From: a virus
Reading direction: 5' to 3' (one strand)
DNA: 64,000 nucleotides
IMG/VR virus record: IMGVR_UViG_3300033143_001962
Span: 1 to 64,000 of that record
Shown: in pieces, positions 7,583 to 64,000 of the stretch
Numbering within the stretch: the first letter of the stretch is position 1
How the letters are laid out: every line of letters starts with the position of its first letter
The notes under the pieces: model-generated
The model's input: the letters and a program-made list of their open reading frames with translations, nothing else
The model's database searches: none
Told to the model about the DNA's origin: nothing
Position numbers and translations under genes: made by a program

Positions 7583-7634
7583 AGTAAATATTTACCATAG
7601 TACGGCTTTTTACGTGGGGGCGCTTTTGACCCTA

Positions 7635-29653: not shown

Positions 29654-29681
29654 ACATCTCCTTGTAGCTTTAGATTTAACT

Positions 29682-29709: not shown

Positions 29710-29743
29710 CCATAATTTATTATATTGGGTTATAATATGTACT

Positions 29744-51100: not shown

Positions 51101-52130
51101 ACTTGCGAATGGAATTGATTACACATTAAGCCCAGCAGCTCCACAAGCTGCAAGATACGGCACAGCGAAGTACGGTACAGCATTGTATTATAATAGCACC
51201 GGGAACTTTATCCCGCGTTATGTAATATTAAACACTGCACCAGTTGATGGTCAGAAAGTAGAAGTATTTGTTAGTCACGAAACAGCATACGAATTTGATG
51301 TTAACACATTAATATTAGATGCAGCACCAACTAACGGTGATATTGTAGCAGTAACAACATTTAAAGATGTTAGAGAACTTGATATACTAACAGAAGTATA
51401 TGTTGGCCCAACACAAATCGAAGAAGCACAGTTAGACTTGTACGATACAGAAGGTTACGATACACTTGCTTTTGATTTAACATCAGGTGTAGACGTAGAT
51501 GTAAATGTATTCCGAAGCAGTAAGATTGCACTAGCAAATACAAATAGACTATGGGTAACATTAAACGGTGAACGTTTAGCAGCTGGCGAAGATTATAGAA
51601 TTGAGAACACTAACGAGTTAGTACTTACAATTCCAGTAATATCTGAGACAGATGTTGTAGCCGTAACTAGTATTACTGATAGTATTATTACAGATGGTTC
51701 AGAGTTCCGTATATTTAAAGATATGCGTGACAGTGTTGGTATGTACAAAATCTCAGATACTACAACTACAGAATTAATACAAGATTTAAACATAGCAGAC
51801 GACATAATACATGTACGTGATGCAAGTGTACTAGGACAGCCGAATCTAGCTATTGCTAAGTTTGGTATATTAACTATTAACGGTGAGCGCATTACATACA
51901 GAGAACGCGACTTACTTAACAATACGGTTAGTGGGTTACGTCGTGGTACAGCTGGCACAGGTGCAGCAGATTTGCACAGTGCAGATGACAGAGCTTACGA
52001 TATTAGTTCTAAGAGTTTTGTACAATGGGATTATGATAGAATATGGTACGCTGTAGGTGATGGCGAAGCGTCAAATGGAATTCCGTTACAGGACCAAGCG
52101 ACGATACCTGCTTTATTCATTAAAAAGTAA
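39102..52130 (+). CDS. Giant baseplate/tail structural protein (gp7 position), 4342 residues
   Basis: 13 kb, by far the largest gene. N-terminus: ARIRSVDFLPEIFQTETN and SPFIDFDKFVNYSQYFWLP, as in large wedge-region proteins of marine T4-like phages; it follows gp6 where gp7 lies in T4 (1032 residues). At least eight beta repeats of the type V-x-[VL]-[ND]-[GN]…DY[ST]…[IV]-x-F…P…[DG] occur (near residues 816, 1046, 2326, 2393, 2506, 3866, 3993, 4149). FG-GAP-like units (RYGESLAMSEEWAVIGAPG; FGNDVSICKSKCSIYFGAE; LFGNAVSLVDGTLVVAS) around residues 2200-2820 suggest an integrin-type beta-propeller. The C-terminus holds NGERITYRERDLLNNTVSGL. It probably combines the wedge and fibre functions of several T4 genes. 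Confidence 0.8.
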   Translation: MARIRSVDFLPEIFQTETNKKFLNSTLDQLIQEPKFKEVQGYIGRRNAPGATPTDGYVLEPTADRTNYQLEPGVTFKDSDGKTIDALSYLGLINGLKAAGANVDNHDRLFRSETYSWSPFIDFDKFVNYSQYFWLPAGPDSVDVGELADGVLLTNDFNMEQEEDTYSVEDYSIDNPIITVARGGEYTFNVNQPGQEFFIQAQPGADGTMPWAANISSRDVLGVSNNGEDSGAVQFNVPQSNAQDFYHNLTSIGDVDLATSVRMDEIADQLLDDVGEHLGIQNINNNTIVFLNDQLGDAVDLGWINNGIPLTTLAERYQVFKIVLEDVAGDVYVRLNPYQLVNNLEKFTVQYGNEHSNKTFYKTQQGVFKEMPILTASLTTLYYQDSSHPDRFGVINIVDANESPTLNISDILGRTDYTSANAVVFTNGLKVKFRGNTNPAEYSDNEYFVEGVGTAIKLVAVSDLIIPEAYAKSTTAPWDTSPFDSAGLDGTLNAPLDQDYITINRSSIDRNAWSRSNRWFHIDVITKTAEYNNVVLDLDNNDRADRPVIEFDADLRLFNYGTNGKDSINIVDTTEVDALSNVNDEESYTIDGYNLVEGSRVVFAADADLSVRNKIYVVELVDLNNNGTETINLTLAEDSESENNDVVLVTNGLTQQGAVFTFTNNVWVQSQQKESVNQAPLFDVFDTAGTSLSDLQAYPSTSFAGTKAFSYAEGTGLKDKVLGFPLKYLNIDNLGDIVFENNLYTDTFIYVENSVSKDNSPVGDGYLRKYSTREEYTNEIGWSKTVEESYLAQILNFEYTGAALELDVLPKVGLSIPAVHITINNEFINPSDYTVTDNVITCSNIIAEIGDTITVNVISDEVSKLGYYEIPSNIASNMFNENTDLLTLGTIRNHFNNLSQHILDIDGDVNGANNLRDLGDISRYGNLIVQQSAPLALAAMFMRNKEYNFFSATEFNARQYEKFKNQLMDWVSKNEVYGMDAGEVLDAALKELNANKHVDGSFYWSDMLATGEDFEATEYGITAISTNTFTTLYSYNYTSANSKALLVYVNNELLTKDAEYTVANDGPRIEILTTLDVGDIVTIKEYNTTVGSGIPSTPTKMGMYPKFKPELYTDNTYVKPTDVIRGHDGSVTVAHGDFSDDVLLEFEKRVYNNIKVNAEIPLLYSDVQGGQFRFTDYTDAEINQVLAPSLLSWLGWNRIDYKTQDYNKLESKTWNYSSAQCKEGDKVAKGNWRGIYNCFYDTDAPHERPWEMLGLTEQPTWWKNRYGPAPYTAGNLVLWDDLEIGLIKEPGNERIAERFVRPGLTNVLPVDGEGKLLMPLDTVISDYTEYDFKKSWALGDHGPAETAWRKSSAFPYAVQTLLALTKPAQYFSLMADRDRYTYNTDFNQYLYDERHRIDSRKVEILEEDTFKHSYINWIVDYNKHYGYNSSEKLKEDMSNLGVSLMHHMASFTDKNSLRIFTDKSSPDSTNSSLLLPDESYNLLMYKNQPFDEIIYSSVIVQKTEDGYSVSGNSATNPYFKIFASEPTGQFKTITVGRTERTSTSVNVPKDFTEEVVFIPYGHVFRSRQAVADFIVSYNKYLVAQGLQFNDAVGTIQVDWEEMVKEFIYWTDQGWSTGSVVNLNPSASTLEFERELVLVDDLNNLELNEQPLDQNREPLQSGDYVVDRIDNNFKIRMLNNNVISYLKFNLTNFEHLLVLDNVSIFNDLMYDPVTGVRQHRVKLSGFATYDWNGQLDAQGFLYNDDNVVEWSQTNSYNTGDIVKFKNSYWSAAEKLQPAAEFDFSKWVKTNYNDIKKGLLPNIATKADQQLDFYNNKTANLESDVDLMALGLTGFRARDYLRALDLHDISQAHIYSDMIQSKGTADSLNLFQDVILNNEVVDYEIYENWAIKRAEFGASSSRSYIELQLDETFHTSNPSIVEVVNATIDAEFGDQTITTANIYKQSEKNIDKNILPTNGDKNLDTMLPSAGFVNPDDVDIAIFELADFPEVTDVIDGTLVWVAKDTVTDWNVYRAFELEAVITDVLDNLDGSLTLIFDTEHGLAASEILVVQNVDAALVDGTHIISSVTDDFKVVIPGELAQNQTTIDDVTGTALKFLSVRMENPSSIAGSFVDNRLFATDTVWINEYNSKGAVYEKSSPFTPVVSYISPEEEANSEYGYDVVQGYNGAGMMVSDPAINTKGQVFCFDKFGSADYILNQVLKLRSTEVARYGESLAMSEEWAVIGAPGDGASIPGVAVLVSRDKVKGLFNEIQVMTHPDATNATLLDTEFGKNVTLSTDENWLYVSEPNANKVHSYQKVEHQAQTIATTMDGITQNIFVEDVIKADTKNELSVTLDGNLLSTAEYEYDGTNVVFDVTPADGVIARVSRLDSNVFDGNGSAQFTINNVYALNGIDSIRVAIDGNIQRPRYDYTLAGNVLTFTTAPDLGTNNIVVTVDTHFAYVSTIAEASGDFSTAVDATTDSSHIIITAPADDKAYIYDRVVERFVVHKDDALLEPITFTLNPIAGRTVSGNVFVNGVKQIKEGFNVNPNYSVSGNTITFITDNVKVGDFVDVDTTEFKEIQTLTGPAGSSFGNDVSICKSKCSIYFGAENDNDGEGSVVRYVNKTRMYGIIQSTIQDLTVSVGDSLRVNNVEIVFTGTTIDQVAQDVNDAAIPNVIASVNDGYLIIELKNKTITSIANKLDVLPGKGTTMASLGLQSYYNGQTITSPQPAAGAHFGSSVQIDLNLNQLIVAAVNGPIAYGADTTEVLADTTAYTADMASTGVVYTYDLLPDATEFSEGKLVFGQQVIDDKMVTTGLFGNAVSLVDGTLVVASIAYDTDTLTDVGRVAIFENKENKLSWNAIKTEKDIVDVSLINSVFIYNNETFAVEQYLDYIDPLNGKILGVAKQNIDYIETKEPTVYGSDFTGALWGKQQVGQMWWDISTCRFVDYNQNDSVQASKLWGKMYPGSSVDVYQWIESDVTPDLYDGAGTVYDVTKFVTMSEINNSGIIQNTYYYWVKGVNAVDTNAHKTLSADAVAQYIESPISSGIAYCALIDQNIVGLYNCKEIINSTKSVLHIEYDKIKNDNNVFHEYSLLRENFANDFLPDGLYKKFQDSLCGVDSLGNKVPDVNLSYSDRFGIDFRPRKSMFIDKFAALTSYLERVNAIMKLSTIAESRVYPLLNSEEPIPAQASGAWDEKVFNTEELSFQDLNIVPAGHTYLLETDSNSNGLWAIYEVTATKTLQLKRVQSYDTKRFWSTENWYAEDFSPFTKSDYVVGTYAELAAIDAANNAVAKVLENSVNKWEIYRYETDTWVRVALESGTIQFNERLWNYDLGRYGWDTEVFDAQYNDEEPVIELRKIIQSINEEILIGDLAVERNKAFMSMFNYILSEQPHVDWLYKTSLIDVNHRVRSLSQYAVYQKDNQDYLADYIKEAKPYHTKIKDLLLSYDGNDVFDGSLTDFDCPAVYSDEYNKFISPILDDGAILTTDVSNVLADDAQWQTSPWAEWYNNYRLNISEVEIVNPGSGYTFAPTVTVTGDCVNPAELIAVVSGTGEIKEIEIVKAGCGYISAPIITIEGGNGNGATALAITGNNVVRTLNTTIKYDRYEYESNVVEWEALTEYTEDQLVRVNNAVYKVLTTEESAETFNPALHELVDIETLSGIDRTTGYYVSDVNNPGLDLSLLINGIAYPGVEVDSVHFAQSLDSVGPEGLPTYSEEIIDTIYESAFLDTYLGTTPIDINIDGGMFIDTYHSHAPDELVPGAMFDTLDIKVFSRPGSDYNNDGHGFDIQSVTNTASGTTGTFSFDAAANHAIELVVVNLTTGATLYEGANYSINWTDKTVEVTSGIVQGDEVKIFVYEIGGGNQLYRATMTGDEANNTFTVPAKLDEIYNIVMFANGVELTNVTTTPINNQSSLVTITGTLQADAFVTVTVFGFNIPQRDESYPVTQTFIYGTDALEMDVDALTGKNRHNAIVEVNGLRLQPEEGVRSIANGINTTFLLPQGGNYSHDLVADNEVSVYVNDVLLANGIDYTLSPAAPQAARYGTAKYGTALYYNSTGNFIPRYVILNTAPVDGQKVEVFVSHETAYEFDVNTLILDAAPTNGDIVAVTTFKDVRELDILTEVYVGPTQIEEAQLDLYDTEGYDTLAFDLTSGVDVDVNVFRSSKIALANTNRLWVTLNGERLAAGEDYRIENTNELVLTIPVISETDVVAVTSITDSIITDGSEFRIFKDMRDSVGMYKISDTTTTELIQDLNIADDIIHVRDASVLGQPNLAIAKFGILTINGERITYRERDLLNNTVSGLRRGTAGTGAADLHSADDRAYDISSKSFVQWDYDRIWYAVGDGEASNGIPLQDQATIPALFIKK

Positions 52131-52145
52131 GCAGTTAATGATTTG

Positions 52146-52153
52146 GATAAATA
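52146..52153 (+). promoter_or_regulatory. Late promoter box (GATAAATA)
   Basis: GATAAATA ends 9 nt before the ATG at 52163, so its transcript would have little or no leader. Confidence 0.5.
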
Positions 52154-52162
52154 ATAGCAATT

Positions 52163-52813
52163 ATGCAAGACGATAAAAAACAAGAGAGTACAGAAGAAGT
52201 GAAAAAACCAAACGAACAAAGCGGCGTACAGGTTACAGGTCACATTAAAATTACTGATCCTGTCACAGGCGAAGTAATACTTGACAAACGCAACGCTATT
52301 CATTATGAAAACTTCAGTGAGTCACTGGCTAATAGCTTGTCCAATAAGAATGTTGGGCAAATATATCAAATGTCATTTGGCAACGGCGGCACAAGTGTTG
52401 ATCCTACAGGCGTAATTACTTACTTGCCTGCTAACTCAACAGGTCAGAACGCTGATTTGTACAATCAAACATATTCAAAAGTAGTTGACGATAGTTCAAC
52501 TGCTAATACAGATACTTCAAGAAACAATTTAACAGTTATTCATACTAGTGGTAAGGTTTACACTGATATACTAGTTAGTTGCTTACTTGATTATGGTGAG
52601 CCATCAGGACAACAAGCGTTCGATAATAGTACGCAACTTGATGGAGAGTTTGTATTTGATGAACTTGGCTTAAAGAGCTGGTACGGAAGTGCCGAGGATT
52701 TGAAATTAATCACTCATGTAGTTTTCCACCCAGTGCAAAAGTCCTTGAACAGACAAATACAAATAGATTATACAGTTCGCATCCAGACGTTGACGAACTT
52801 GTCAACAACTTAA
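52163..52813 (+). CDS. Conserved baseplate/fibre-region protein
   Basis: 216 residues. A charged start, then GVQVTGHIKITDPVTGEV, KRNAIHYENFS, MSFGNGG and VITYLPANSTGQNADLYNQT. I recognise this order from proteins downstream of the large wedge genes in marine T4-like phages; likely a virion component of the baseplate periphery or fibre attachment. No enzyme motif. Confidence 0.7.
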   Translation: MQDDKKQESTEEVKKPNEQSGVQVTGHIKITDPVTGEVILDKRNAIHYENFSESLANSLSNKNVGQIYQMSFGNGGTSVDPTGVITYLPANSTGQNADLYNQTYSKVVDDSSTANTDTSRNNLTVIHTSGKVYTDILVSCLLDYGEPSGQQAFDNSTQLDGEFVFDELGLKSWYGSAEDLKLITHVVFHPVQKSLNRQIQIDYTVRIQTLTNLSTT

Positions 52814-52816
52814 AAT

Positions 52817-52824
52817 GATAAATA
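52817..52824 (+). promoter_or_regulatory. Late promoter box (GATAAATA)
   Basis: GATAAATA, 23 nt before the ATG at 52847, with GGAG as ribosome-binding site. Confidence 0.6.
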
Positions 52825-52846
52825 AAGCTAATATACGGAGCAATCG

Positions 52847-54340
52847 ATGGCTTATACAATAAACAAAACAGATGGTTCTATCTTCGCAACAGTATCGGAT
52901 GGAACAATCAATACAGACAGTAGTGTTACTGTCATTGGTAAAAACTACGCTGGTTACGGCGAATTTTTAGGTGAAAACTTTTTACGCCTTTTAGAAAACG
53001 GTTCAAATGCGGCAGCACCAGCTAACCCATTACAGGGCCAGCTATGGTTTGATTCAGCAGCAGGTTTACTTAAAGTATTTAACGGTACAACATTTAAGAA
53101 CTTAGGCGCAGCGGCAGCAGACAGTGTTGCTCCACCAAGTAATGTAACAGGCGACATGTGGTTTGACACAGTTAACTCACAGTTAAACGTTTATGATGGA
53201 GCTGACTTTATATTAGTTGGTCCAGCATTTACAGCAGGCACAGGTACTTCTGGCGCCATTGTTGATACTATCCAAGATAGTTTAGCAGTTGATCACGTTG
53301 TAATTAAATTATACGCAGAAGACGACATTGTAGCTATTGTAAGCAAAGACACAGAATTTACAATTGGTACACCACTGCCAGGTTTCGCAACAACAATTAC
53401 TCCAGGTGTTCAATTAGCATCAACAGTAAACGGTGAGATTCCAACGTTTATCGGTCAAGCTACAGATTCACAATTATTAGACGGTATCGACAGCACAGGC
53501 TTTATTAGTGCTACTACTGATGACACTACAACAGGAACAATTGGCATTTTAAATGACAACGGTTTAACAGTTGGCGCAGATAGCGATGCAAAGATTACAG
53601 TAAGTGGCACAAATGTTACAGTTGGTAATACAACATTAGACGGAGACTTGATTTTACAAGTTAACGATGGAGGCGTACCAACTGACGTTATAACAATAGA
53701 TGGCGCGACAGGTAGAGCAACAGTAGCAGCACCACTTACTGCAAACGATGTAGCTAACAAAGATTATATCGATACTGCAATAACAGCAGCCGTTGATCCT
53801 GTTACAGGTACTGCATTACTTAAAGATGGTAGCAATGATGTCACTGGCGTTATTAACCCAGCAGCAGATAATGCAACAGATTTCGGTGAAGTAGCAAAAC
53901 GTTGGGCAACAGTACATGCAGTAACATTTAGCGGTAAAGCTACGACAGCACAGTACGCGGATTTGGCGGAACGCTTTGAAGCAGATGCTACAATGGTTCC
54001 AGGCACAGTAGTTGAGTTAGGCGGTATAGCAGAAATTACAGCTTCGGTAAGTGATTTATCAAGTGAAGTGTTTGGTGTTATAAGTACTAATGCAGCGTTC
54101 TTAATGAACTCAGACGCAGGCACAAATGAAACGCATCCACCAGTAGCAATGAGCGGTAGAGTACCGGTCAGAGTTATTGGAACGATAAATAAAGGACAGC
54201 GTTTAGTGTCGGCAGGCGACGGCTTAGCCAGAGCAGCTACACTAGAAGAAATTAACTCTTTCAATGTAATCGGAAGAGCACTAGAAAGTAAAACAACAAG
54301 CGGCGAAGGTGTAATTGAAGCATTCGTAACCGTTAACTAA
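52847..54340 (+). CDS. Tail-fibre-like protein with chaperone-type C-terminus
   Basis: 497 residues. Two N-terminal units, GQLWFDS…VFNG (64-87) and GDMWFDT…VYDG (102-125), are the phage-tail 'W-F-D' repeat. The middle is beta-rich. The C-terminus AQYADLAERFEADATMVPGT, then VFGVIST and GRVPVRVIGTINKGQRLVSA is the conserved end of many marine phage fibres, probably an intramolecular chaperone or peptidase-like domain. Likely a host-contact protein. The early small protein at 3475-3666 repeats its first unit. Confidence 0.8.
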   Translation: MAYTINKTDGSIFATVSDGTINTDSSVTVIGKNYAGYGEFLGENFLRLLENGSNAAAPANPLQGQLWFDSAAGLLKVFNGTTFKNLGAAAADSVAPPSNVTGDMWFDTVNSQLNVYDGADFILVGPAFTAGTGTSGAIVDTIQDSLAVDHVVIKLYAEDDIVAIVSKDTEFTIGTPLPGFATTITPGVQLASTVNGEIPTFIGQATDSQLLDGIDSTGFISATTDDTTTGTIGILNDNGLTVGADSDAKITVSGTNVTVGNTTLDGDLILQVNDGGVPTDVITIDGATGRATVAAPLTANDVANKDYIDTAITAAVDPVTGTALLKDGSNDVTGVINPAADNATDFGEVAKRWATVHAVTFSGKATTAQYADLAERFEADATMVPGTVVELGGIAEITASVSDLSSEVFGVISTNAAFLMNSDAGTNETHPPVAMSGRVPVRVIGTINKGQRLVSAGDGLARAATLEEINSFNVIGRALESKTTSGEGVIEAFVTVN

Positions 54341-54361
54341 TTAAACAGGAATTTTTAAAAC

Positions 54362-55282
54362 ATGGCTTATACATCGGGCAACACAATATTAGATGACGAG
54401 TACAACAGCTTTGCAGCAAGTGTGAACGCAGTTATGTCGACAGGTAGTGGCGAAGGCGGTTACGGGCAAGGTGCAGTGTCTACAGTATCAGCAGGTACTA
54501 TAGTGTCAGCAGCACAATGGGCAACATTGCTAAACAAAATTAGCTCAGCAGCGTCGCATCAAGGTTCTAGTATTACAGGTATTGCTAACCCAGTAACAAC
54601 AGATACTATTACAGCAGAAGCAGCACTTACTAGTAACATTTCGACTATCGGAACTAACAAGAAAAACGCAGCGGCAAGTGGTACAGCTATCACAGCTGGT
54701 GGCACTTCGTCAACTACAGCATCATGGACTACAACACGCGCAACAACACAGCGCGTAACATTTGGCAGTACTGAACAAAGACGTTTCTTTTTCAACGCAG
54801 GTGGACGTATTACGATTTCGTTCTCGCGTACTGGCGGAACAGCACATGCTAAAAATACAGGTTGGACAGATTTATGTACAGCTTGCGGCACAATTAACTT
54901 AACTGGTGGTAGTGCAGCTAAAACAATAGCAGCGGTATCATACACAGGTCTTTCAAAGAAAGGCGGAAGCGGCACAGTGTCTATACTAAACACAGGTACA
55001 GGTGAAGAAGATTTAACTGGTACGTTAGTAACTCATTTCAGACAGTACGATGCATCTGCAAATTATACAGCAAATCGAATCGATCTTGCGCTTGCTGATG
55101 GTGCAGCAACTATTGACATCAGAACAACATTCATTGATGATGCTGCTGACGAACCTGAAGATCCAAGCCTTGATATAGTAGATGGCACTTTAACTTGTAC
55201 AGTAACAGTAGTTCCACCAAGTACTGCTAATTTATCTAGCACTTGGGGCACACCTAGTATTAGTACTACTGAAGCACTATAA
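54362..55282 (+). CDS. Virion/fibre-associated structural protein
   Basis: 306 residues, low in charge and very rich in Thr, Ser, Ala and Gly. It begins with DDEYNSFAASVNAVM, later has STEQRRFFFNAGGRITISFS and GWTDLCTACGTINLTGG, ending with a beta-rich VDGTLTCTVTVVPP. The N-terminal pattern occurs in marine myophage structural proteins next to fibres. The last gene before a terminator. No enzymatic motif. Confidence 0.65.
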   Translation: MAYTSGNTILDDEYNSFAASVNAVMSTGSGEGGYGQGAVSTVSAGTIVSAAQWATLLNKISSAASHQGSSITGIANPVTTDTITAEAALTSNISTIGTNKKNAAASGTAITAGGTSSTTASWTTTRATTQRVTFGSTEQRRFFFNAGGRITISFSRTGGTAHAKNTGWTDLCTACGTINLTGGSAAKTIAAVSYTGLSKKGGSGTVSILNTGTGEEDLTGTLVTHFRQYDASANYTANRIDLALADGAATIDIRTTFIDDAADEPEDPSLDIVDGTLTCTVTVVPPSTANLSSTWGTPSISTTEAL

Positions 55283-55303
55283 CATTTTGGTACAATCCAA
55301 TTA

Positions 55304-55328
55304 AGTAAGGGGCTTTTGCCCCTTTACT
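55304..55328 (+). terminator. Rho-independent terminator of the late tail operon
   Basis: AAGGGGC-TTTT-GCCCCTT stem followed by a T-rich run, 26 nt after the stop of the previous gene. Confidence 0.85.
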
Positions 55329-55351
55329 TTTGACTTCTTTTTTGCTATAAT
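55323..55351 (+). promoter_or_regulatory. Sigma70-type promoter of the modification island
   Basis: TTTACT (55323-55328), 17 nt, TATAAT (55346-55351). Initiation is predicted at about 55358, the first base of the ATG, so the message would be leaderless. Confidence 0.6.
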
Positions 55352-55357
55352 TAGCAG

Positions 55358-55666
55358 ATGAAAGATAAACTCAAAAACGTCCGCCAGCACTTCGATCACG
55401 ATGCTGCAAAACAAATACTCAAAGAAAAGTACGAAGCCAAAATGCTATTTGCAGCTTTCGAAGGCATGTGGAAAGCAGGTCCAGAATTAATTAATACACT
55501 CAAAATTGAAATTACTGGTTGCTATGCAAACATGGTATTAATTGACGAGTACGGTAATCCATGTAGCGTTAAGAGAATGGAATTATTATCATTGGCTCAA
55601 CAACGTTGGAAAGAACAAATGAATGGTTGGCACAAAGAATTTGAAGAGTTGCAAAGTAAACGATGA
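55358..55666 (+). CDS. Small conserved hypothetical protein
   Basis: 102 residues, helical, with KNVRQHFDHDAAKQILKEKY and AAFEGMWKAGPELINTLK, and a C-terminal LAQQRWKEQMNGWHKEFEEL helix. First gene of the right-hand island, and its stop overlaps the next start as ATGA. No Shine-Dalgarno. Family not recognised. Confidence 0.6.
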   Translation: MKDKLKNVRQHFDHDAAKQILKEKYEAKMLFAAFEGMWKAGPELINTLKIEITGCYANMVLIDEYGNPCSVKRMELLSLAQQRWKEQMNGWHKEFEELQSKR

Positions 55667-56478
55667 GTAGAGGCGTACTAATATTTGCGTTTAACAATAA
55701 AACGTTAGACTACTTTAAGCAAGCAGTCTGGGTAGCTGATAGAGTACAGCGATTCCTTAACCTTCCAACAACTATTGTTACTGACGAAGCAAGCTTAAGC
55801 ACAAAAACAGAGCACAATGTTATTATTAAAGAAGTACACGTTATGTCTAAACGTGTATTTGATGTTAGTAAAGGATCACAGTCTGATTTTTGGTTTAATG
55901 CTAATCGCTTCCAAGCATACGATCTTACGCCGTACGACGAAACTATAGTAATTGATAGTGACTACATTGTTAGCAGCGATCAACTTAATTTATTATTTGA
56001 TTCGCCACATGACTTCTTATGTCATAGAGATGTGTACGATGTGTCTAATAGAAATAGCTTAAGTGGGGATTGCACATTTGGTAAGGTGCAAATGCCGCAC
56101 TACTGGGCTACTGTCTTATTCTTCCGCGAGTCAGCTCTTGCAGAAGACATGTTTGAGCTAATAGAAATGATTAAAGAGAATTGGAAATTTTATAGTCAGT
56201 TGTATCAGTTCACTGGAGCATTGTTCCGTAATGACTTTGCAGTTAGTATAGCACTGTCTATTGTTTACGGGCATAGATTACATGCTATTCCTACTATACC
56301 GTGGAACTTGCCTACAGCGGTAACAGATATAGAAGCTACGCAAATAGATGATACAACATTTGAATTAACGTACGAGAAGCACTACAGGAATAAGAAACGT
56401 CCTATGAAAACAATTATTAAAGATCAAGACTTACACTTGTTTAATAAGGTAGCGTTAGAGGCAATGATAGATGCATAA
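55663..56478 (+). CDS. GT-A-type glycosyltransferase-like protein
   Basis: 271 residues. ETIVIDSDYIVSSDQ (D-x-D at 98-100) is a metal-binding motif of nucleotide-sugar transferases; the preceding RFQAYDLTPYDETIVIDSD is arranged as in GT8-like enzymes. WATVLFFRESALAEDM follows. It would transfer a sugar to DNA, protein or host glycan; acceptor unknown. Overlaps its neighbours by a few bases. Confidence 0.7.
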   Translation: MSRGVLIFAFNNKTLDYFKQAVWVADRVQRFLNLPTTIVTDEASLSTKTEHNVIIKEVHVMSKRVFDVSKGSQSDFWFNANRFQAYDLTPYDETIVIDSDYIVSSDQLNLLFDSPHDFLCHRDVYDVSNRNSLSGDCTFGKVQMPHYWATVLFFRESALAEDMFELIEMIKENWKFYSQLYQFTGALFRNDFAVSIALSIVYGHRLHAIPTIPWNLPTAVTDIEATQIDDTTFELTYEKHYRNKKRPMKTIIKDQDLHLFNKVALEAMIDA

Positions 56479-57307
56479 GTTAGACCCAAACGGTTACTTA
56501 ATAGTAGCAACTAACACAGATGATGTAGACTACATTGATTGTGCGGTTGCATGTGCGCGTAGTATTAGATTGCACACACCAGACGCTAAGATATGCTTAT
56601 TAACTACTAGCGATGTGAAATTGGTCGCACATACAGTATTTGATTACATTAAGTTATTTCCGTACCCAGTCAATAAAGAAAATCCATTTGCAAACGATTG
56701 GCAAATATACCACGCAAGTCCATTCCGTGAAACGATTAAAATAGAAGCGGATATGATTATCCCGCATAGTATCGAACATTGGTTTAGTATGCTTAGACAC
56801 AAAGATGTTGTACTAACACTTGGAGCAAGGAACTACAAAAATGAAAAAACAAATGAAAGACATTATAGAAAAATATTTGATGCAAATAATTTACCTGACG
56901 TATATAATGCGATTACTTACTGGCGCGTAAGTCAAACAGCACATGACTTCTTTGCGTTAGTTAAGCATTTATTTGATGCATGGCCAGACGTGCAGCAGCA
57001 AATTAAATTAGGCAGTACTGACATTGGCACTACAGATTTAGTGTACGCAATAGCGGCAAGGTCTATGGGTGTAGAAAAAGTAACTTTGCCAGAAACATCA
57101 TATCCTACGCTTATACATATGAAAGGAAGGATAAATAAGCTTGTAGGCGAAGACTGGACAAAAGAATGCGTTTACGAATTCGATAAATCAAACATTCGTA
57201 TTAACACTATCGATCAACAATATCCCTTTCATTACCAAGTCAAAGAATTTAGCAAGGAATTAAACAAATATTATGACGAACTTCTTCAAAGCCCTGAGCC
57301 AAGTTAA
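56471..57307 (+). CDS. Glycosyltransferase-like protein (GT8-type)
   Basis: 278 residues. YLIVATNTDDVDYIDCAVAC, then IKIEADMIIPHS with E-A-D at 92-94 in place of D-x-D, and ITYWRVSQTAHDFF. The layout is similar to the previous gene, suggesting two related transferases. Acts in the cytosol by absence of membrane or signal segments. Confidence 0.65.
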   Translation: MHKLDPNGYLIVATNTDDVDYIDCAVACARSIRLHTPDAKICLLTTSDVKLVAHTVFDYIKLFPYPVNKENPFANDWQIYHASPFRETIKIEADMIIPHSIEHWFSMLRHKDVVLTLGARNYKNEKTNERHYRKIFDANNLPDVYNAITYWRVSQTAHDFFALVKHLFDAWPDVQQQIKLGSTDIGTTDLVYAIAARSMGVEKVTLPETSYPTLIHMKGRINKLVGEDWTKECVYEFDKSNIRINTIDQQYPFHYQVKEFSKELNKYYDELLQSPEPS

Positions 57308-57596
57308 CGAGCCAGTCTATCAAAAAATAGAATTTAGGCTGTACTACGACGACGAAAATAAGCCAACGTTCTACACCATGGAAGAACTTGAAGGCAATTA
57401 CATTAACATAACAGCACTAGAGTTTGCAGAAGGCAGGCAAGATGTAGTTATCAAAGATGGCAAAATTAAACGTGTTAGTGGTATAAGCATAGGTAAATTA
57501 GTACCATCGCAGGATGGATATGGCACACTACGAGACGATGTCAGTATAGTAGGATTAGAAACATTATGGAGTATGAAAACGTATGAGAACGATTAA
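57273..57596 (+). CDS. Hypothetical protein of the modification island
   Basis: 107 residues. KIEFRLYYDDENKPTFYTME and YINITALEFAEGRQDV are beta-type. It overlaps the upstream gene by 35 bp and the downstream one by 14. Resembles short uncharacterised proteins often found in marine T4-like phages; function unknown. Confidence 0.6.
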   Translation: MTNFFKALSQVNEPVYQKIEFRLYYDDENKPTFYTMEELEGNYINITALEFAEGRQDVVIKDGKIKRVSGISIGKLVPSQDGYGTLRDDVSIVGLETLWSMKTYEND

Positions 57597-57834
57597 AATA
57601 AAGAAAGCATTCACTGAAGACTTAGTGCCAGTGGTAAAAATAATATTCGATGATCAAGAAGCATCAGCGACATGGAAGCCACACATTGTTGAAGATATGG
57701 AAAAGTATCACCCTGGGATTGATGTCACGGACGAAATTGTAAAGGCTCTAGTTGGAGAGTTAGATTTTGAATTTACATTAACTGAAGATGAAAAGGTTAT
57801 GTGTTTGGAAAAATTATCAGAAACCTTTAAATGA
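57583..57834 (+). CDS. Small acidic hypothetical protein
   Basis: 83 residues. VPVVKIIFDDQEASATWKPH and an acidic C-terminal helix ending LEKLSETFK. Overlaps the neighbours on both sides (ATGA to the next gene). No recognisable family. Confidence 0.55.
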   Translation: MRTIKIKKAFTEDLVPVVKIIFDDQEASATWKPHIVEDMEKYHPGIDVTDEIVKALVGELDFEFTLTEDEKVMCLEKLSETFK

Positions 57835-58769
57835 GTGAATACAGCATGGACATAGCTGATATGGACGTTGTTTATCTTAGTTACGACGAGCCGCAGAAAG
57901 AAGAGTTCTGGGTTAAGATTAAAAACATGGTGCCATGGGCAGTACGTGTAGACGGAGTTAAAGGCAGCGACGCAGCACATAAAGCCGCAGCTGATGCAAG
58001 TCAAACAGATCGCTTCGTTCTAATAGATGGCGACAACATGCCAGACTTAGACTTCTTTAATCAGTCTATAAATTTTGTAGACGCTGATTACGAAAAAGCA
58101 GTATTCCGTTGGAGAGCACGTAACGAAATAAATGGCTTAATGTACGGCAACGGTGGACTTAGTTGTTGGACTAAAGAGTTTATATACAACATGAAAACAC
58201 ACGAGGCGAGTGAAGGCGATGATGAAACCGATGTCGAATTTTGTTTCGATCCTAATTACTGGGCTATGCATGATTGTTTCAGTACTACTTTTCCTAATGG
58301 CAGTCAGTACCAAGCATGGCGTGCCGGTTTCAGAGAAGGCGTTAAAATGTGTCTTATTAAGGGCACTAAGCCGAGCATTATAGAATTTAAAGATCAAGTA
58401 CATAAGCGTAACATGGATAACCTAAGCATTTGGCATAATATAGGGCTAGACGTAAAGAACGGCGAATGGGCCATAGCAGGAGCAAGACAAGGTACGTACA
58501 TGACTATGCTAGACGACACGTGGGATTATAAAGACGTACAAGACTTCGATAAAGTAGAAGAAATTTACAATACAAGTGTACGTGGATTTAATGCTGAAGG
58601 CTTAATGGATGATATAGGTGACGAGCTTGAAGCACAATTAGACATGACTATATTGCTACCAGACACCGCTAACAGTAGATTCTTTAAGCATCATTACAAA
58701 GCTAACTTTCATAATAAAGGTATCGGCGTTAAAGAAATTGATGTCATACGGGAGCAAGAAGGATGGTAA
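57831..58769 (+). CDS. Glycosyltransferase-like protein (GT2/GT-A type)
   Basis: 312 residues. MDVVYLSYDEPQKEEFW, then RVDGVKGSDAAHKAAADASQ and RFVLIDGDNMPD with D-x-D at 66-68: the order of a GT-A fold with metal-binding DGD. FRWRARNEINGLMYGNGGLS follows. Third transferase of the island. Its stop is nested in the start of the first oxygenase gene. Confidence 0.7.
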   Translation: MSEYSMDIADMDVVYLSYDEPQKEEFWVKIKNMVPWAVRVDGVKGSDAAHKAAADASQTDRFVLIDGDNMPDLDFFNQSINFVDADYEKAVFRWRARNEINGLMYGNGGLSCWTKEFIYNMKTHEASEGDDETDVEFCFDPNYWAMHDCFSTTFPNGSQYQAWRAGFREGVKMCLIKGTKPSIIEFKDQVHKRNMDNLSIWHNIGLDVKNGEWAIAGARQGTYMTMLDDTWDYKDVQDFDKVEEIYNTSVRGFNAEGLMDDIGDELEAQLDMTILLPDTANSRFFKHHYKANFHNKGIGVKEIDVIREQEGW

Positions 58770-59323
58770 GTTGGCTAGACACAAACATATCTTTTAATAA
58801 TGCATTGTCAGATAACGGCCACAAATTAATCAATAAATTAATGATACAGTCACTTAGTGAGTCAGAAGGGAAGATGGACAAGTATTATTTTGACGATGTT
58901 GATTTTGTCAATGAAGCATGGCTTAACTCTCTTAAAGATGCAGGATTGTATCCGTATGTTGCTCTAGCAGTATATCGACGCGAAGGTGCACACGGTTTAG
59001 AATTTGCACATACTGATTCACTTACTACGTATGCGGCCTTAAATTGGGTAGAGTGTACAGGACTAAGTGAAATGGTATGGTACACCCCAACAAAAGACCC
59101 GACAATGATTGAAGCAATAGATACATTAGTATACGAACACGATGACCTAATAGAGATAGATAGTAAGGACATTCATGGTGATAATATGACACTAGTTCAA
59201 ACGAATATACCTCACGACGTCCGCCGTGACGGTGCAGCTCGTCTGACAATTAGTGTACGTTTCCGCAACGGATGGCAATCTTGGGAAGAAGCAGTAGAAT
59301 TTTTTAAAGGTAATAACTTATGA
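58763..59323 (+). CDS. 2-oxoglutarate/Fe(II)-oxygenase-like protein 1
   Basis: 186 residues. FAHTDS (His83, Asp85), the distal NIPHDV (His151) and RLTISVRF (Arg166) form the H-x-D…H…R pattern of 2OG/Fe(II) dioxygenases, on a double-stranded beta-helix-like sequence. WYTPTKD follows SEMV, as in its three paralogs. It probably hydroxylates an amino acid, peptide or sugar. Overlaps the next gene by ATGA. Confidence 0.75.
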   Translation: MVSWLDTNISFNNALSDNGHKLINKLMIQSLSESEGKMDKYYFDDVDFVNEAWLNSLKDAGLYPYVALAVYRREGAHGLEFAHTDSLTTYAALNWVECTGLSEMVWYTPTKDPTMIEAIDTLVYEHDDLIEIDSKDIHGDNMTLVQTNIPHDVRRDGAARLTISVRFRNGWQSWEEAVEFFKGNNL

Positions 59324-59934
59324 ACCCGTATTACGCAACAACAAATATAGATTTTATGAACGGTATCTCAAATTACGGCGCAGAAGAAATTAGACGCTTA
59401 GACGCTGAGAGTATAACTAACCCGGAACAATTCTCAATTGAGAAGTACTTCATTGATTACGATGATAAAGAAAAGAACTTCCTGACACTTGAATGGAAAG
59501 ACAAACTAGTAGCAGCAGGTCTAGAGCCGTATTACGCTTTGGTGTTTGTTAGACAAAACACAGAACACAATAATGCAGACGGCCCGCACGTTGACGCACA
59601 GCCCGACGGTATATTCACAGCATTAAATTATGCGCATTGTTTAGGTGAAGAGAAAATGGTTTGGTACAAGGCGAATGAAACAGTTACAGACCTTAGTAAG
59701 GTGCCAGTACATGATACGCTGCCTTATATACAGTACGAAAAAAGTAAAGTCCGTGAAGTCGCATCAGCACCTACAGCAAGCCGTGGAAGCTTAATGTCGT
59801 TAGTGCGAACAGACATTCCGCATGACATTATTATTAAAGGTAACAGCAGACGCTTGTCAGTTAGCTTGCGCTTTCACAATAAATTTAAAGATTGGGAAGA
59901 AGCAGTAGAATTTTTTAAAGGTATTAAAATATGA
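59320..59934 (+). CDS. 2-oxoglutarate/Fe(II)-oxygenase-like protein 2
   Basis: 204 residues. GPHVDA (His90, Asp92), DIPHDI (His168) and RLSVSLRF (Arg184). Ending WEEAVEFFKGIKI is almost the same as WEEAVEFFKGNNL of the previous gene, so this is a recent tandem duplicate. ATGA overlaps on both sides. Confidence 0.75.
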   Translation: MNPYYATTNIDFMNGISNYGAEEIRRLDAESITNPEQFSIEKYFIDYDDKEKNFLTLEWKDKLVAAGLEPYYALVFVRQNTEHNNADGPHVDAQPDGIFTALNYAHCLGEEKMVWYKANETVTDLSKVPVHDTLPYIQYEKSKVREVASAPTASRGSLMSLVRTDIPHDIIIKGNSRRLSVSLRFHNKFKDWEEAVEFFKGIKI

Positions 59935-60566
59935 TATACAATAACAACGGTAAACACTTAATGATAATTGGCTTCAATGCAAGCACAATTACACAAGAGA
60001 TAACGTACATGTTTGAAGAAGGCATTATGCGTGGTGATGCACCTGGTCTTAATTTTGATGTTATTACACCTGACGAATTCTTTAAGATTGGCCAGAAGGA
60101 AGTATTCCAGTACCTTGTTATGTTTAACAAAGATCAGAAAGTACGTAAAGACGTTATAGATACAATAAACTGCGAAGGTTTAAATTGTGTTAGTGCAGTA
60201 CATCATACAGCCTGGATGCCAGCAAATGCATACATTGGCAAAGGAACAGTTATAGGTCCATTTGCATCATTGTACCAGCATACTAAACTAGGAGACCACG
60301 TTGTCTTAGAAGCATACAGTATGGTAGGACATCACTCAGAGGTTGGAGACAATGTGCATATACGTCCTAATGTAATGATATCTGGCAATGTAACAATAGG
60401 TGATAATTGTATGATCAACTCGCGGAGTACAGTACTTGAAGGTTATAGTATTTGCGACGGAGTAGCATTAGGGGCAATGACTTGTGTGCGTAAGCATATA
60501 ACAGAGTCCGGTATATACTTGGGTACAAGTGCTAAACGTGTTGGTGAATTTGCTGATGCGACTTGA
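59931..60566 (+). CDS. Hexapeptide-repeat acyltransferase (NeuD/PglD-like)
   Basis: 211 residues. The N-terminal part holds HLMIIGFNAS, a nucleotide-type fold start; from residue 95 there is a left-handed beta-helix: AYIGKGTVIGPFASLYQHTK, VGHHSEVGDNVHIRPNVMIS and GNVTIGDNCMINSRS. The His pair in GHHSEVGDN is the usual catalytic site. It would acetylate an amino sugar, in line with the neighbouring transferases. Confidence 0.85.
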   Translation: MIYNNNGKHLMIIGFNASTITQEITYMFEEGIMRGDAPGLNFDVITPDEFFKIGQKEVFQYLVMFNKDQKVRKDVIDTINCEGLNCVSAVHHTAWMPANAYIGKGTVIGPFASLYQHTKLGDHVVLEAYSMVGHHSEVGDNVHIRPNVMISGNVTIGDNCMINSRSTVLEGYSICDGVALGAMTCVRKHITESGIYLGTSAKRVGEFADAT

Positions 60567-61536
60567 GATACAAAAACATATCGGCAATGACGAGTTAGTT
60601 GATACAACTACATTAATTATTTCAATAATTGACATCATGCACGAGCACGGTGAAATCACAATGGTAACCGATGAGGTATTTTCAGCTGTTAACACTGGCT
60701 TCGTTGATGTACTAGATAAACTAATCCGGCACTATAATTGGGACAGGAAAAAGATTACACTCGAGTATGTTAATAGAAAAGAAATGGAAACTATTACGCA
60801 ATTTAATGCCGTGATGTTCTCGGATTTTAAGTCTGGTACATTAGCCGGTAGTCGCACATTTGATGTTCCTACATCGTTACCGTGGAATAAGGAAATGGAT
60901 TTTGGTATGTTTATTGGTCGGCTTAATTTTACAAGACTGTGCGCATTGGATAGTTACCGGAATTTTAAATATAAAGAATTTGGCATCACGTCGATGAATC
61001 AGGCACCTTACGAGGATTCCGTTAACGATAAGTTTATCTTACAATATTTAAAAGCCACAGATACGAAGTGGGCAGACATAAAGGATCTCCAGCCGTACAG
61101 CGATCTCGGCGAAGTAATAAAGCCACCTATAATTCCACCCGCAAGTTTAATAGGATGGGAGAAGGTATACGAAAAAATAGCAATTGAAATCATATGCGAA
61201 ACTAATGATTCGTACGGTAATATGGCTATTACTGAAAAGTTTCTCAGGTGTTGTTTGTATAAGCGACCATTTTTATTAATAGGCAGCCCGGGTATTCTGC
61301 TTAGTTTAAAAACCGATTACTGGCATACTGATGAGAAACCGAGATTCTTTGAGGATGTAATACCATTGAACTATGATAACTTATACGGCAAGGAACGAGT
61401 GGACGCCGTGTTTGATTTACTTGCTAATTTAATTAGTACAGGTAAAATTAATACAATACTTGAAGATTGCAAAGAAGACATTGAACACAATTTCAAGATA
61501 GTAAGTGAAAACATACAAGGATTATCAAATGCATAG
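60556..61536 (+). CDS. Glycan-related transferase-like protein
   Basis: 326 residues from ATG at 60556; 60529 is possible. ITEKFLRCCLYKRPFLLIGS near residue 230 recalls the C-terminal 'ITEK-R…KPF…G' block of exostosin/fucosyltransferase-type enzymes. No other motifs are evident. It overlaps the acyltransferase by 11 bp. The assignment is weak. Confidence 0.5.
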   Translation: MRLEIQKHIGNDELVDTTTLIISIIDIMHEHGEITMVTDEVFSAVNTGFVDVLDKLIRHYNWDRKKITLEYVNRKEMETITQFNAVMFSDFKSGTLAGSRTFDVPTSLPWNKEMDFGMFIGRLNFTRLCALDSYRNFKYKEFGITSMNQAPYEDSVNDKFILQYLKATDTKWADIKDLQPYSDLGEVIKPPIIPPASLIGWEKVYEKIAIEIICETNDSYGNMAITEKFLRCCLYKRPFLLIGSPGILLSLKTDYWHTDEKPRFFEDVIPLNYDNLYGKERVDAVFDLLANLISTGKINTILEDCKEDIEHNFKIVSENIQGLSNA

Positions 61537-62128
61537 CAACAACTTACCAGACTGGTATAAAACAGAAATAGTATTTAGTGAGCAGTTCTCACTTAGTGAG
61601 TTTGGACACGAAGCAGTAAAAACAATGAAAGAACGTGCAGAAAAAGAATACGTGTGTCACGTAGTATATGAAGAAGACACACGTATCTTTAGTGACAGTT
61701 GGTTGCAGTACCTTGCAGAATTTGGACTACATCCTACAAGTGTGCTAATTATATGTAGGCTATCCCAAGCCCAACACCCACACGCACATTTAGATAAGTC
61801 ACTGGGCATACATGATAGCGGAGCACTTAATTGGGTAGAAGATAATAACGATGACAGCGAAATGATATGGTACGAGATGCCAGCATTAGATGTTGACCGT
61901 TACGACTTTGAAAGCGATCCACGCTATACTAATTTTAGAAGCGAGCAGTTAACAGAACGTTCTCGTGCTACACTTGGCGGTAGCGATAATATGGCATTAG
62001 TCAGAACAGACATTCCGCATAATATTATAATGGGTGACGTGCCTAGGCTGGCTGTTAGTGTACGCTTTAGTGAAGGTGAGTACACATGGGCAGAGTCCGT
62101 AGAAAGAATGAAGGAGTACATAGTATGA
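61529..62128 (+). CDS. 2-oxoglutarate/Fe(II)-oxygenase-like protein 3
   Basis: 199 residues from ATG at 61529 (AAGGA 8 nt upstream); a GTG at 61505 is less likely. HAHLDK (His87, Asp89), DIPHNI (His164), RLAVSVRF (Arg179), with SEMIWYEMPAL between. Coupled to the next gene by ATGA. Confidence 0.75.
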   Translation: MHSNNLPDWYKTEIVFSEQFSLSEFGHEAVKTMKERAEKEYVCHVVYEEDTRIFSDSWLQYLAEFGLHPTSVLIICRLSQAQHPHAHLDKSLGIHDSGALNWVEDNNDDSEMIWYEMPALDVDRYDFESDPRYTNFRSEQLTERSRATLGGSDNMALVRTDIPHNIIMGDVPRLAVSVRFSEGEYTWAESVERMKEYIV

Positions 62129-62718
62129 GTGAATGTATGCACAGAACAAACATAAGTTTTAAAGGCGCGCTATCCGAGTTAGGTGGAATAGAAATAAATC
62201 GTATCAGGCGACTAGTTGACAAAAAAACATTCCATCATCAAAAGTTTATATTAGATAAAGAAAAGATATTTACAGATGAATGGATGCAGTACGTACATGA
62301 TAAGTTAGGAATGACTCCTACTACTGCAATGGCATTTTGTCGTAACCCGCACGTACAATTAGGCGCAGCACATATAGATGGCGGCCGAGACCGTGAAATA
62401 TTTATGGGTCTGAATTGGGTGCAAGGCGAAGACGATAGTGAAATGATATGGTACGACATGCCCGACGTACTCAACGATATGCTTGAAGATGAATATGTTA
62501 AGTACTGGACGTTCCCAGAAGATGAATACGACTTAAAAGAAATACATAGAGAGTGTGTTGGCAATAGTGATAACTTAGCACTTGTACGCGCAGACATACC
62601 GCATGATGTTATTATGGGAGACAAACAACGTTTCGGGTTTACAATACGTTTCTGGAAAGACTACGAAAGTTGGGATGATGTTGTAGAACAATTTAAGGAC
62701 GTTATAGTTGAAGAGTAA
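62125..62718 (+). CDS. 2-oxoglutarate/Fe(II)-oxygenase-like protein 4
   Basis: 197 residues from ATG at 62125 (AAGGAG 8 nt upstream). AAHIDG (His83, Asp85), DIPHDV (His160), RFGFTIRF (Arg175); SEMIWYDMPDV is shared with protein 3, so 3 and 4 form the second related pair. All Fe and 2OG ligands are kept. Confidence 0.75.
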   Translation: MSECMHRTNISFKGALSELGGIEINRIRRLVDKKTFHHQKFILDKEKIFTDEWMQYVHDKLGMTPTTAMAFCRNPHVQLGAAHIDGGRDREIFMGLNWVQGEDDSEMIWYDMPDVLNDMLEDEYVKYWTFPEDEYDLKEIHRECVGNSDNLALVRADIPHDVIMGDKQRFGFTIRFWKDYESWDDVVEQFKDVIVEE

Positions 62719-64000
62719 ATTTTTAACAGATGCAGAAAACATGAAGGAAAAGTTGGATACAGTATCTCCTTCATTTTGTTTAGCAAAGTGGAAGCAAGTA
62801 TCCTTGCACTTAACAAATGGCATGAATAACTCTTGCTACCATCCTCCATTGCATAAAATTAATGTAGACGATATAATAAAAGATCCAAGCGCACTACATA
62901 ATACAGCAGAAAAAGCTATAGCCAGAAAACAAATGGTGAGCGGCGAGCGACCCTCTGAATGTAGCTACTGTTGGGCAATGGAGGATAACGGTGAGTTAAG
63001 TGACAGGCATTACAGAAGTGGAGAACCATGGGCAGCACAGGACTTTGATACAATAGTCGCAAACCCAGAAGCTTCTGTAACGCCATCGTATGTAGAGGTT
63101 AATTTTAACCACTCATGTAACTTAGCTTGCTCTTATTGCAGCCCACAATTTTCGAGTACGTGGGGGGTTGAAGCAAGAAAGTTCGGAGCTTACCCTACTT
63201 CAACTCCACATAACGATCCTGCTTATTTTGCAGGTAATCGTAAACCAATTCCTAATCGCGAATACAATCCATACGTAGAAGCATTTTGGAAATGGTGGCC
63301 CGAGCTTTACAAAGACTTAGTACATTTCCGCATGACAGGCGGCGAACCATTACAAGATAAAAATACTTACAAAGTCTTTGATTATGTTTTGGAAAATCCA
63401 AAACCTGATTTACATTTGAATGTAACTTCAAACCTGTCTGTAGATCAGAAGCTGTGGGACAAATATTTAGGGTACGTTAAGCAATTAACTACTGGCAAGA
63501 TTGAACACTTCATGCAGTACGTATCAGTAGACACATGGGGTGAACAAGCAGAGTACATACGGCACGGGTTAGACTTTGATTTACTTTGGAAACGAGTAGA
63601 CCAGTACTTGACAGAAGTGCCTGAGTACTGTAGTATTACATTTATAATTACTATGAATAACTTGTCGATATACAGTTTGGATAAGTTAATGGAAGGCATC
63701 TTAGAGTTGCGTAAGAAGCACAGTAAAACATATCAGCGTGTATGGTTTGATACTCCAGTCTTGCGTACACCAGAATGGCAGAGCTTACAAATTCTGCCAG
63801 AGTACTATGCAACTAAGTTGATGGATATAAAAGAATTCATGATAGACAACGCGGAGACAGCTGATGAGCTGTATCATGGATTCAAAGATTATGAAATACA
63901 ACGTATGAGCAGAGACATAGCTTGGATGAGACAAGGAACTGATAACGTGGAACAAAAGAAAGCGGACTTTTATCGCTTCTTTAACGAAGCAGACAAACGT
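62708..64000 (+). CDS. Radical SAM enzyme (twitch/SPASM type), 3' end outside window
   Basis: Open from TTG at 62708 (AAGGA 8 nt upstream) to the window end, 431 residues; ATG at 62740 is the alternative. SCNLACSYC (Cys137, 141, 144) is the cluster motif, FRMTGGEPL the SAM-binding GGE. The N-terminal PSECSYCWAMEDNGELSDR resembles the CW.E…G..S.R region of radical SAM proteins in marine T4-like phages. Substrate unknown; neighbours suggest peptide or sugar modification. Confidence 0.85.
   Translation, partial: MKSKFLTDAENMKEKLDTVSPSFCLAKWKQVSLHLTNGMNNSCYHPPLHKINVDDIIKDPSALHNTAEKAIARKQMVSGERPSECSYCWAMEDNGELSDRHYRSGEPWAAQDFDTIVANPEASVTPSYVEVNFNHSCNLACSYCSPQFSSTWGVEARKFGAYPTSTPHNDPAYFAGNRKPIPNREYNPYVEAFWKWWPELYKDLVHFRMTGGEPLQDKNTYKVFDYVLENPKPDLHLNVTSNLSVDQKLWDKYLGYVKQLTTGKIEHFMQYVSVDTWGEQAEYIRHGLDFDLLWKRVDQYLTEVPEYCSITFIITMNNLSIYSLDKLMEGILELRKKHSKTYQRVWFDTPVLRTPEWQSLQILPEYYATKLMDIKEFMIDNAETADELYHGFKDYEIQRMSRDIAWMRQGTDNVEQKKADFYRFFNEADKR

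Follow-up and report, generated by a model that had tools for sequence, protein, structure and literature searches.

Islands that combine several radical SAM (S-adenosylmethionine) genes with glycosyltransferase genes are already known, as a kind, from marine T4-like phages (the papers named here are cited from excerpts of their text). In pelagimyophages and cyanomyophages, a hypervariable host recognition cluster carries glycosyltransferases together with radical SAM cassettes, and its authors favour a role in modification of the host O-chain (PMC7029224). The pelagimyophage type of this cluster is bounded by the VrlC gene and the neck gene gp14. The T4-like marine genome TARA_ERS488813_N000010 holds 12 radical SAM genes (PMC5332604), and T4-like cyanophages carry 2-oxoglutarate (2OG) oxygenases and carbamoyltransferases (PMC3037559). 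In addition, Moraphages, which are aquatic jumbo phages, have four putative glycosyltransferase groups in their core genome (PMC12619734). Here we analyse a related island at positions 55358-64000 of IMG/VR virus record IMGVR_UViG_3300033143_001962, a record of 249,797 bp of which the first 64,000 form the stretch studied (hereafter the window).

The island resembles the host recognition cluster of PMC7029224 in belonging to a T4-like phage, in being a hypervariable part of the structural region near the tail fibres, in its glycosyltransferases, and in that cassettes differ between close relatives. It is unlike that cluster, as excerpted, in possessing a fixed core (genes B, C and F, five radical SAM genes and a carbamoyltransferase) around a defined slot, and in the conserved terminator and sigma70-like promoter that stand in front of it. 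Like TARA_ERS488813_N000010, this phage has a T4-like genome with numerous radical SAM genes; PMC5332604 treats those genes as Fe-S proteins, and the excerpted passage has no operon of transferases with a carbamoyltransferase. Moraphages are likewise aquatic and have putative glycosyltransferases, while the excerpted text of PMC12619734 mentions no radical SAM enzyme, carbamoyltransferase or oxygenase. Within the open-access literature searched, we found no description of an operon of this type, with a fixed multi-radical-SAM core, a defined slot and an insulated promoter. We propose, at a probability of roughly 45%, that this is an early-transcribed operon for the assembly and decoration of a glycan, with the help of swap-in decorating enzymes, the likeliest target being the host envelope.

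The operon and its fixed core

This large, uncultured, water-borne phage is T4-like as judged from its head and baseplate genes, which include those for a major head protein (phrog_138, 1.7e-97), a portal (phrog_213, 6e-106) and a baseplate wedge protein (phrog_10646, 1.2e-278). A megablast search of the island against INPHARED phages gave no match, and an Rfam scan of 52000-64000 returned nothing above the gathering score. A first-pass annotation of the window had described an overlapping operon of transferases, oxygenases and a radical SAM gene. All the genes it listed are present, in order, within a run of thirteen + strand genes in which each neighbouring pair overlaps by 4 to 43 nt (Table 1). 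The extent given to the island was too short: when the remainder of the record was fetched (L003, whose position 15397 is genome position 77397), the island proved to be the front portion of an operon of ~22 kb that spans genome 55358-77397 and continues for ~13.4 kb past the window. Downstream of R1 lie R2 to R6, small open reading frames (ORFs), an SGNH-like protein, the G-related H357, the conserved 382-residue X382, two tiny ORFs, the carbamoyltransferase CT and Y539, a 539-residue protein distantly similar to F; a ThyA-family (thymidylate synthase-family) gene stands on the opposite strand just past the operon end. Between X382 and CT there is also a cysteine-rich 59-residue ORF (L003 12097-12276), a candidate DUF1289-like protein.

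Table 1. Genes and transcription signals of the operon front (positions in the window; kept relatives are the 80 loci compared in the text)
Feature	Position	Strand	Description	Basis
Terminator	55307..55324	+	intrinsic, just past the last tail gene; 7-bp stem rich in GC, T-rich tail	hairpin and T-run in relatives
Promoter	55323..55351	+	sigma70-like, TTTACT-N17-TATAAT	motif kept in relatives
A	55358..55666	+	102 aa, conserved core gene	80/80 kept relatives
B	55663..56478	+	271 aa, putative transferase, invariant D98/D100	80/80 kept relatives; homologous to C
C	56471..57307	+	278 aa, putative transferase, invariant E92-A93-D94	80/80 kept relatives; weak phrog_1903 match, 8.3e-05
D	57273..57596	+	107 aa, conserved	80/80 kept relatives
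E	57583..57834	+	83 aa	relatives in 0/80 kept loci
F	57831..58769	+	312 aa, predicted GT-A-fold protein, invariant D66-G67-D68	AlphaFold, Foldseek, VIA
OX1	58763..59323	+	186 aa, 2OG/Fe(II) oxygenase, first gene of the accessory slot	ligands, predicted fold
OX2	59320..59934	+	204 aa, 2OG/Fe(II) oxygenase, sister of OX1	ligands, tree
HEX	59931..60566	+	211 aa, left-handed beta-helix sugar N-acyltransferase, PglD/VioB/NeuD type	Hexapep 2.1e-29
G	60529..61536	+	335 aa, transferase-like, conserved TEK...RPFL motif, related to H357	22/80 kept loci
OX3	61505..62128	+	207 aa, 2OG/Fe(II) oxygenase	ligands, tree
OX4	62086..62718	+	210 aa, 2OG/Fe(II) oxygenase, sister of OX3, last gene of the accessory slot	ligands, tree
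R1	62708..64000, on to genome 64078	+	456 aa, radical SAM with N-terminal twitch domain	NF033640, 325 bits (cut-off 170)

For locus comparisons we kept 80 of the 271 relatives of F in IMG/VR, 63-75% identical to F, and scored gene presence in them at E 1e-4. Complete operons were retrieved from 20 contigs out of the 28 long ones searched, picked by length and with one near-duplicate skipped. F is the best-conserved gene of the operon front and is present in all 80 kept loci, and an ortholog of R1 was found in 75 of them and in each of the 20 fetched operons. The order D, F, R1, R3, R4, R5, R6, X382, CT is kept in 20/20, with the five radical SAM orthologs 46 to 77% identical across operons, and CT is present in 28/28 of the long contigs. 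Other genes come and go among the 20: an H357-like gene was found in 19, the SGNH gene in 4, Y539 and G in 2 each, and R2 and an OX gene in 1 each. Furthermore, a diverged version of the operon occurs in four marine contigs from metagenome-assembled genomes (MAGs), all of which carry the tail genes, B, C, F, R1, R3 and R4, with R6, R5 and CT in some.

R1, the radical SAM enzyme of the first-pass annotation, is the first of six twitch-domain radical SAM genes in the operon. R1, R3, R4, R5 and R6 match NF033640 (N_Twi_rSAM) at 292-403 bits, and R2, at 163.7, falls just below the cut-off. The CxxxCxxC cysteines (C137, C141, C144) and four N-terminal, auxiliary-cluster cysteines (C24, C43, C85, C88) are invariant in all six copies. 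A family search of the genome found eight radical SAM proteins and one marginal match; two twitch-domain genes lie beyond the operon, at genome 90466-91689 (+) and 239590-240624 (-). Vibrio phages K566 and K567 (OZ196521 and OZ196593, ~255 kb) possess an N_Twi-type radical SAM cluster as well. That of K566, however, is found by ribonucleotide reductase rather than annotated tail genes. The best R4 match in these records has 27% identity, and at the sensitivity used no F homologue was found in any INPHARED phage. K566, a jumbo phage, may offer a cultivable model for twitch-domain radical SAM clusters.

Of 20 loci with bacterial relatives of R4, 8 were read by eye. Chromosomal relatives in three of these (L136, L140, L145) lie beside what look like glycosyltransferases or sugar epimerases and other polysaccharide genes, and in two (L143, L140) a carbamoyltransferase appears to be nearby. 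Several R4-like genes per contig were seen in L133, L138 and L146 (Elusimicrobia MAG), with a maximum of seven on one contig.

CT, of 502 residues, contains both carbamoyltransferase Pfam domains above their cut-offs (PF16861, 172 bits; PF02543, 122 bits), in common with the NodU/TobZ O-carbamoyltransferases, and aligns with the solved relatives TobZ and GdmN. It differs from NodU in being short and in scoring far under the NodU equivalog cut-off.

Of the three GT-A-like transferases of the first-pass annotation, F is predicted to have a GT-A fold with an acidic metal-binding motif: its AlphaFold model (pLDDT 76.9) is matched in Foldseek by the PBCV-1 capsid glycosyltransferase 2p6w (7.7e-4) and by HddC (2.6e-4), and in VIA by B4GALNT1 (Z 9.9, root-mean-square deviation (rmsd) 3.1 over 140 residues), these fold matches covering residues 5-158. 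Since the GT-A fold also includes nucleotidylyltransferases, the glycosyltransferase activity of F stays putative. For B and C, what was found is their homology to each other (hhalign 98.9%) and their invariant acidic motifs; a profile comparison of F with B gave no relationship, and PDB profile searches with alignments of the OX proteins, F, B, C, R4 and G yielded nothing useful.

The variable slot and its oxygenases

The region between F and R1 is a slot of 0-5.8 kb whose contents differ between phages. Slot size could be taken from 60 of 65 distinct relatives, the other 5 having no R1 on the contig: it is empty (<=60 bp) in 21, 61-1000 bp long in 15, 1001-2500 bp in 17 and larger in 7, with a maximum of 5751 bp. 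Pfam assignments for 73 slot proteins included radical SAM (10), AMP-binding (3), epimerase (2), hexapeptide acyltransferase (2), sulfotransferase (1), GDSL (1) and PhyH (1) families, and by eye more of these proteins resemble SGNH hydrolases, methyltransferases or other oxygenases. Each OX gene and HEX was found in 1/80 kept loci. Because the slots of the nearest relatives (L014/L015 and L016) hold an ortholog of G alone, 45-47% identical, OX1-OX2-HEX and OX3-OX4 look like additions flanking G in this lineage, with G apparently the older occupant.

HEX bears out the acyltransferase of the first-pass annotation. It matches TIGR03570 (NeuD/PglB/VioB) with an E-value of 1.8e-34 and 119.1 bits, below the cut-off of 160.8, and aligns with PglD, VioB and perosamine N-acetyltransferase; its likeness to these sugar enzymes is drawn from the alignments. 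For G, no Pfam or PDB match was found. One relative, L026, holds two incomplete copies of the 3' end of F within its slot (at ~13316 and 14005), one of which ends an ORF that by eye is sulfotransferase-like. That cassettes are generally inserted through duplication of this end of F was rejected, since this relative is the only such case among 48 loci with a non-empty slot.

The four oxygenases of the slot, the only matches of their family in the genome, are true paralogs by sequence comparison. They match one another with E-values of 1e-13 to 1e-36, and a tree groups OX1 with OX2 (99/98; 36% identical) and OX3 with OX4 (87/79; 37%) within a single clade of four (94/97), in agreement with the two duplicated pairs that had been described. 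Their iron ligands (HxD...H; H83, D85, H151) and candidate 2OG arginines (R160, R166) are invariant in 18/18 distinct family members, those from outside the window included. This confirms the earlier claim of ligand conservation, and because of it all four enzymes look catalytically intact. At their 3' ends (59244-59323 and 59855-59934), OX1 and OX2 share a near-identical block of 43 nt at 93%, in genes whose proteins are 36% identical, as if from gene conversion or recombination.

None of the four has a curated match in Pfam or PHROG, or one above an NCBIfam cut-off, and tblastn of OX2 and OX4 found nothing in INPHARED phages. The OX1 model is a double-stranded beta-helix (pLDDT 79.7, pTM 0.80) whose best Foldseek matches are the 2OG oxygenases MINA53, AlkB and FIH. 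VIA places it near proline 3-hydroxylase (1e5r; Z 9.6, rmsd 3.9, 145 aligned), a nucleoside-antibiotic hydroxylase (Z 9.0) and AspH (Z 8.4, rmsd 3.6, 136 aligned). The structural comparison that had been suggested thus yields a 2OG fold and does not separate prolyl from base hydroxylases: several classes lie within ~1.5 Z of each other, too close in score for a substrate of OX1 to be chosen from the fold.

AlkB structures, which are weak matches, raise the idea that the oxygenases, transferases and carbamoyltransferase act on hydroxymethylated DNA bases. The ThyA-family gene just past the operon is in keeping with this, and TobZ-type DNA carbamoyltransferases are known. TET and JBP proteins are absent from the Foldseek and VIA results of OX1, which are not decisive in this respect. 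We consider DNA-base hypermodification highly improbable, given that a hydroxymethylase was not recognised inside the operon and that the sulfotransferase, epimerase and GDSL genes of the slots do not point to DNA.

How the oxygenases are distributed bears on their place in any pathway. Used as a single query, OX1 found no relative in IMG/VR; an alignment of five oxygenases found 15 loci, of which 9 records were searched for F and 9 contexts, together with L114, were read by eye. The scattered distribution without the transferases, which the first-pass annotation had named as counting against its reading, was found in part: an F homologue accompanies the oxygenase relative in 4/9 other records and is lacking in 5/9. 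Conversely, by family profile, only 1/80 kept F-relatives (L032) has an oxygenase of this family in its slot. With relatives so scattered and slots so rarely occupied by the family, the four oxygenases are accessory and not part of the pathway core. The unrelated gene contexts of their relatives would also suit a collection of unlinked host-metabolism or stress genes piled up in a permissive spot, a reading that is very hard to square with the tight overlaps, the fixed core order and the consistent sugar and radical SAM repertoire of the slot.

One of these contexts may bear on the substrate. On L114, a phage contig of 452,799 bp, three oxygenase paralogs are interleaved with lpxC at 5259-8106 (TIGR00325, 256 bits; cut-off 187). 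Oxygenases flanking lpxC link the family to lipid A in another phage, and suggest lipid A or lipopolysaccharide (LPS) as one of its targets. L114 also has a collagen-like protein and a GXY run of at least 7 triplets near its three paralogs, so that collagen hydroxylation may apply there; for the present genome we rejected it, as no GXY run of at least 7 triplets occurs in the window or in L003-L013.

Signals between the tail genes and the operon

The first-pass annotation placed the island directly after the tail genes. The two do adjoin, yet the 75-nt gap between the last tail gene (ending at 55282) and gene A contains both an intrinsic terminator and a sigma70-like promoter, so the operon does not simply carry on from the tail genes. 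A hairpin with a T-run is present in the corresponding gap of 60/64 distinct relatives. In the 62 distinct gaps of <=400 nt, TTTAC-N17..19-TA[TC]A[AC]T was found in 43, against 0.05/62 in shuffles. The -35 element overlaps the T tract of the terminator, and only 6 nt separate the end of the -10 element from the start codon of A, so that a transcript from this promoter, if used, would be leaderless; the -10 ends 5-7 nt ahead of the start in 40 of the 43 promoter-bearing gaps. None of the four marine sister contigs matched the strict pattern; by eye, three of them (L129, L131, L132) show a -35 of TTG type that is ~17 nt from a TATAAT, with the ATG ~6 nt further on.

Late transcription appears to be signalled differently. 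T4 late promoters, TATAAATA, are served by gp55, and the genome encodes a gp55-type late sigma factor on the minus strand (28676-29713; phrog_12791, 5.4e-72), at 346 residues longer than T4 gp55. Over the whole window TATAAATA was found 4 times with 8.45 expected; as this count is uninformative, position-specific counts were used instead. The late core ATAAATA lies upstream of tail gene T52847 in 59/59 distinct relatives (3.4 in shuffles); it precedes gene A in 1/65, and in no case B, C, D, F or R1. From these motifs we infer that host RNA polymerase reads the operon apart from the late genes and probably earlier.

This arrangement also bears on whether the operon serves the virion, its enzymes building a glycan on tail or capsid proteins or hydroxylating them. 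The operon lies directly after the tail genes, and tail gene T54362 is found in 79/80 kept relatives; the predicted fold of F matches the PBCV-1 major-capsid glycosyltransferase, that of the oxygenases is near protein hydroxylases, and virion glycosylation is on record for mycobacteriophages (cited in the excerpted PMC12619734). Position and precedent give this alternative real weight. It is weakened by the sigma70-like promoter sitting behind a conserved terminator, in contrast to the late-type promoter of a tail gene close by, and by the absence of a collagen-like GXY run of at least 7 triplets, and we hold it to be possible though on the unlikely side. The tail region itself includes a single ORF of 4342 residues spanning 13 kb (39102-52130).

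A glycan pathway and its likely target

Taken together, HEX, CT, F, the lpxC context of L114 and the contexts of R4 relatives favour the building and tailoring of a glycan. Among the products that had been put forward (a decorated glycan, a modified virion protein or a modified DNA base), a glycan-type pathway is the one supported, by the PglD/VioB-like HEX, the NodU/TobZ-like CT, the GT-A fold of F and the epimerase, sulfotransferase and acyltransferase genes in slots of relatives; the virion link is weakened as set out above, and a DNA base lacks specific support. In the order of steps that we envisage, the conserved core (B, C, F, the five orthologous radical SAM enzymes and the O-carbamoyltransferase) would make the backbone and perform standard tailoring, and the slot that separates F from R1 would accept swap-in decorating enzymes. 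In this phage, HEX would acylate an amino sugar, and the oxygenases might hydroxylate either the sugar itself or an acyl or aminoacyl group attached to it. Because the operon has a promoter of its own, the host envelope is the likelier target: a glycan of LPS or O-antigen type may be altered during infection, for example to exclude other phages. The gene content and its conservation, the variability of the slot, the invariant ligands, the terminator and the promoter-like and late-type motifs are read directly from sequence, whereas the chemistry, the step order, the early timing and the envelope target are deduced.

Several observations weigh against this reading. A sugar-nucleotide synthesis gene was not identified in the operon, the part of the genome annotated for one. 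Promoter-like motifs are no proof of early expression, and the terminator upstream of the operon may be leaky. Using mechanically assigned starts, ATAAATA was found ahead of tail gene T52163 in only 1/61 relatives; the copy of this gene in the window has ATAAATA at 52147. Furthermore, the majority of oxygenase relatives have no LPS genes as neighbours, and of the eight bacterial R4 contexts read by eye, three (L139, L141, L142) have no evident glycan genes and one (L137) looks like a polyketide- or fatty-acid-type cluster. Finally, many peptide-maturase models give weak scores with the N_Twi family.

The L137 context and the weak peptide-maturase scores, along with the AMP-binding enzymes of some slots, are also what one might expect if the radical SAM enzymes, oxygenases and ligases matured a ribosomal peptide or natural product for use in infection. 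Six radical SAM paralogs in a single operon, all with CxxxCxxC and the four N-terminal cysteines, would suit such a role, as would the proline 3-hydroxylase and nucleoside-antibiotic hydroxylase among the best VIA matches of OX1. By eye, without a dedicated search, we recognised in the operon neither a precursor peptide nor a leader-recognition domain, a transporter or a protease, and the carbamoyltransferase, GT-A and PglD-type genes suit sugars better. We therefore judge peptide or small-molecule biosynthesis to be distinctly unlikely, and return to a glycan of the host envelope as the preferred product.

Whatever that product is, the five radical SAM orthologs, conserved throughout a group without an INPHARED match, point to an important chemistry that we found assigned nowhere in the searches made. 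The range of slots from empty to full amounts to a set of natural knock-outs, through which a change in the product could be related to the gain of a given cassette. The terminator and promoter, both conserved, predict that an island adjoining the tail genes, and easily read as virion-related, is expressed apart from them. More speculatively, and with rather low confidence, the operon may represent a viral 'serotype' system, in which a widespread aquatic T4-like lineage uses an early operon to make a fixed glycan core with five radical SAM steps and a strain-specific slot. If so, infected cells would be dressed in a strain-specific glycan made by radical chemistry, which would exclude competing phages.

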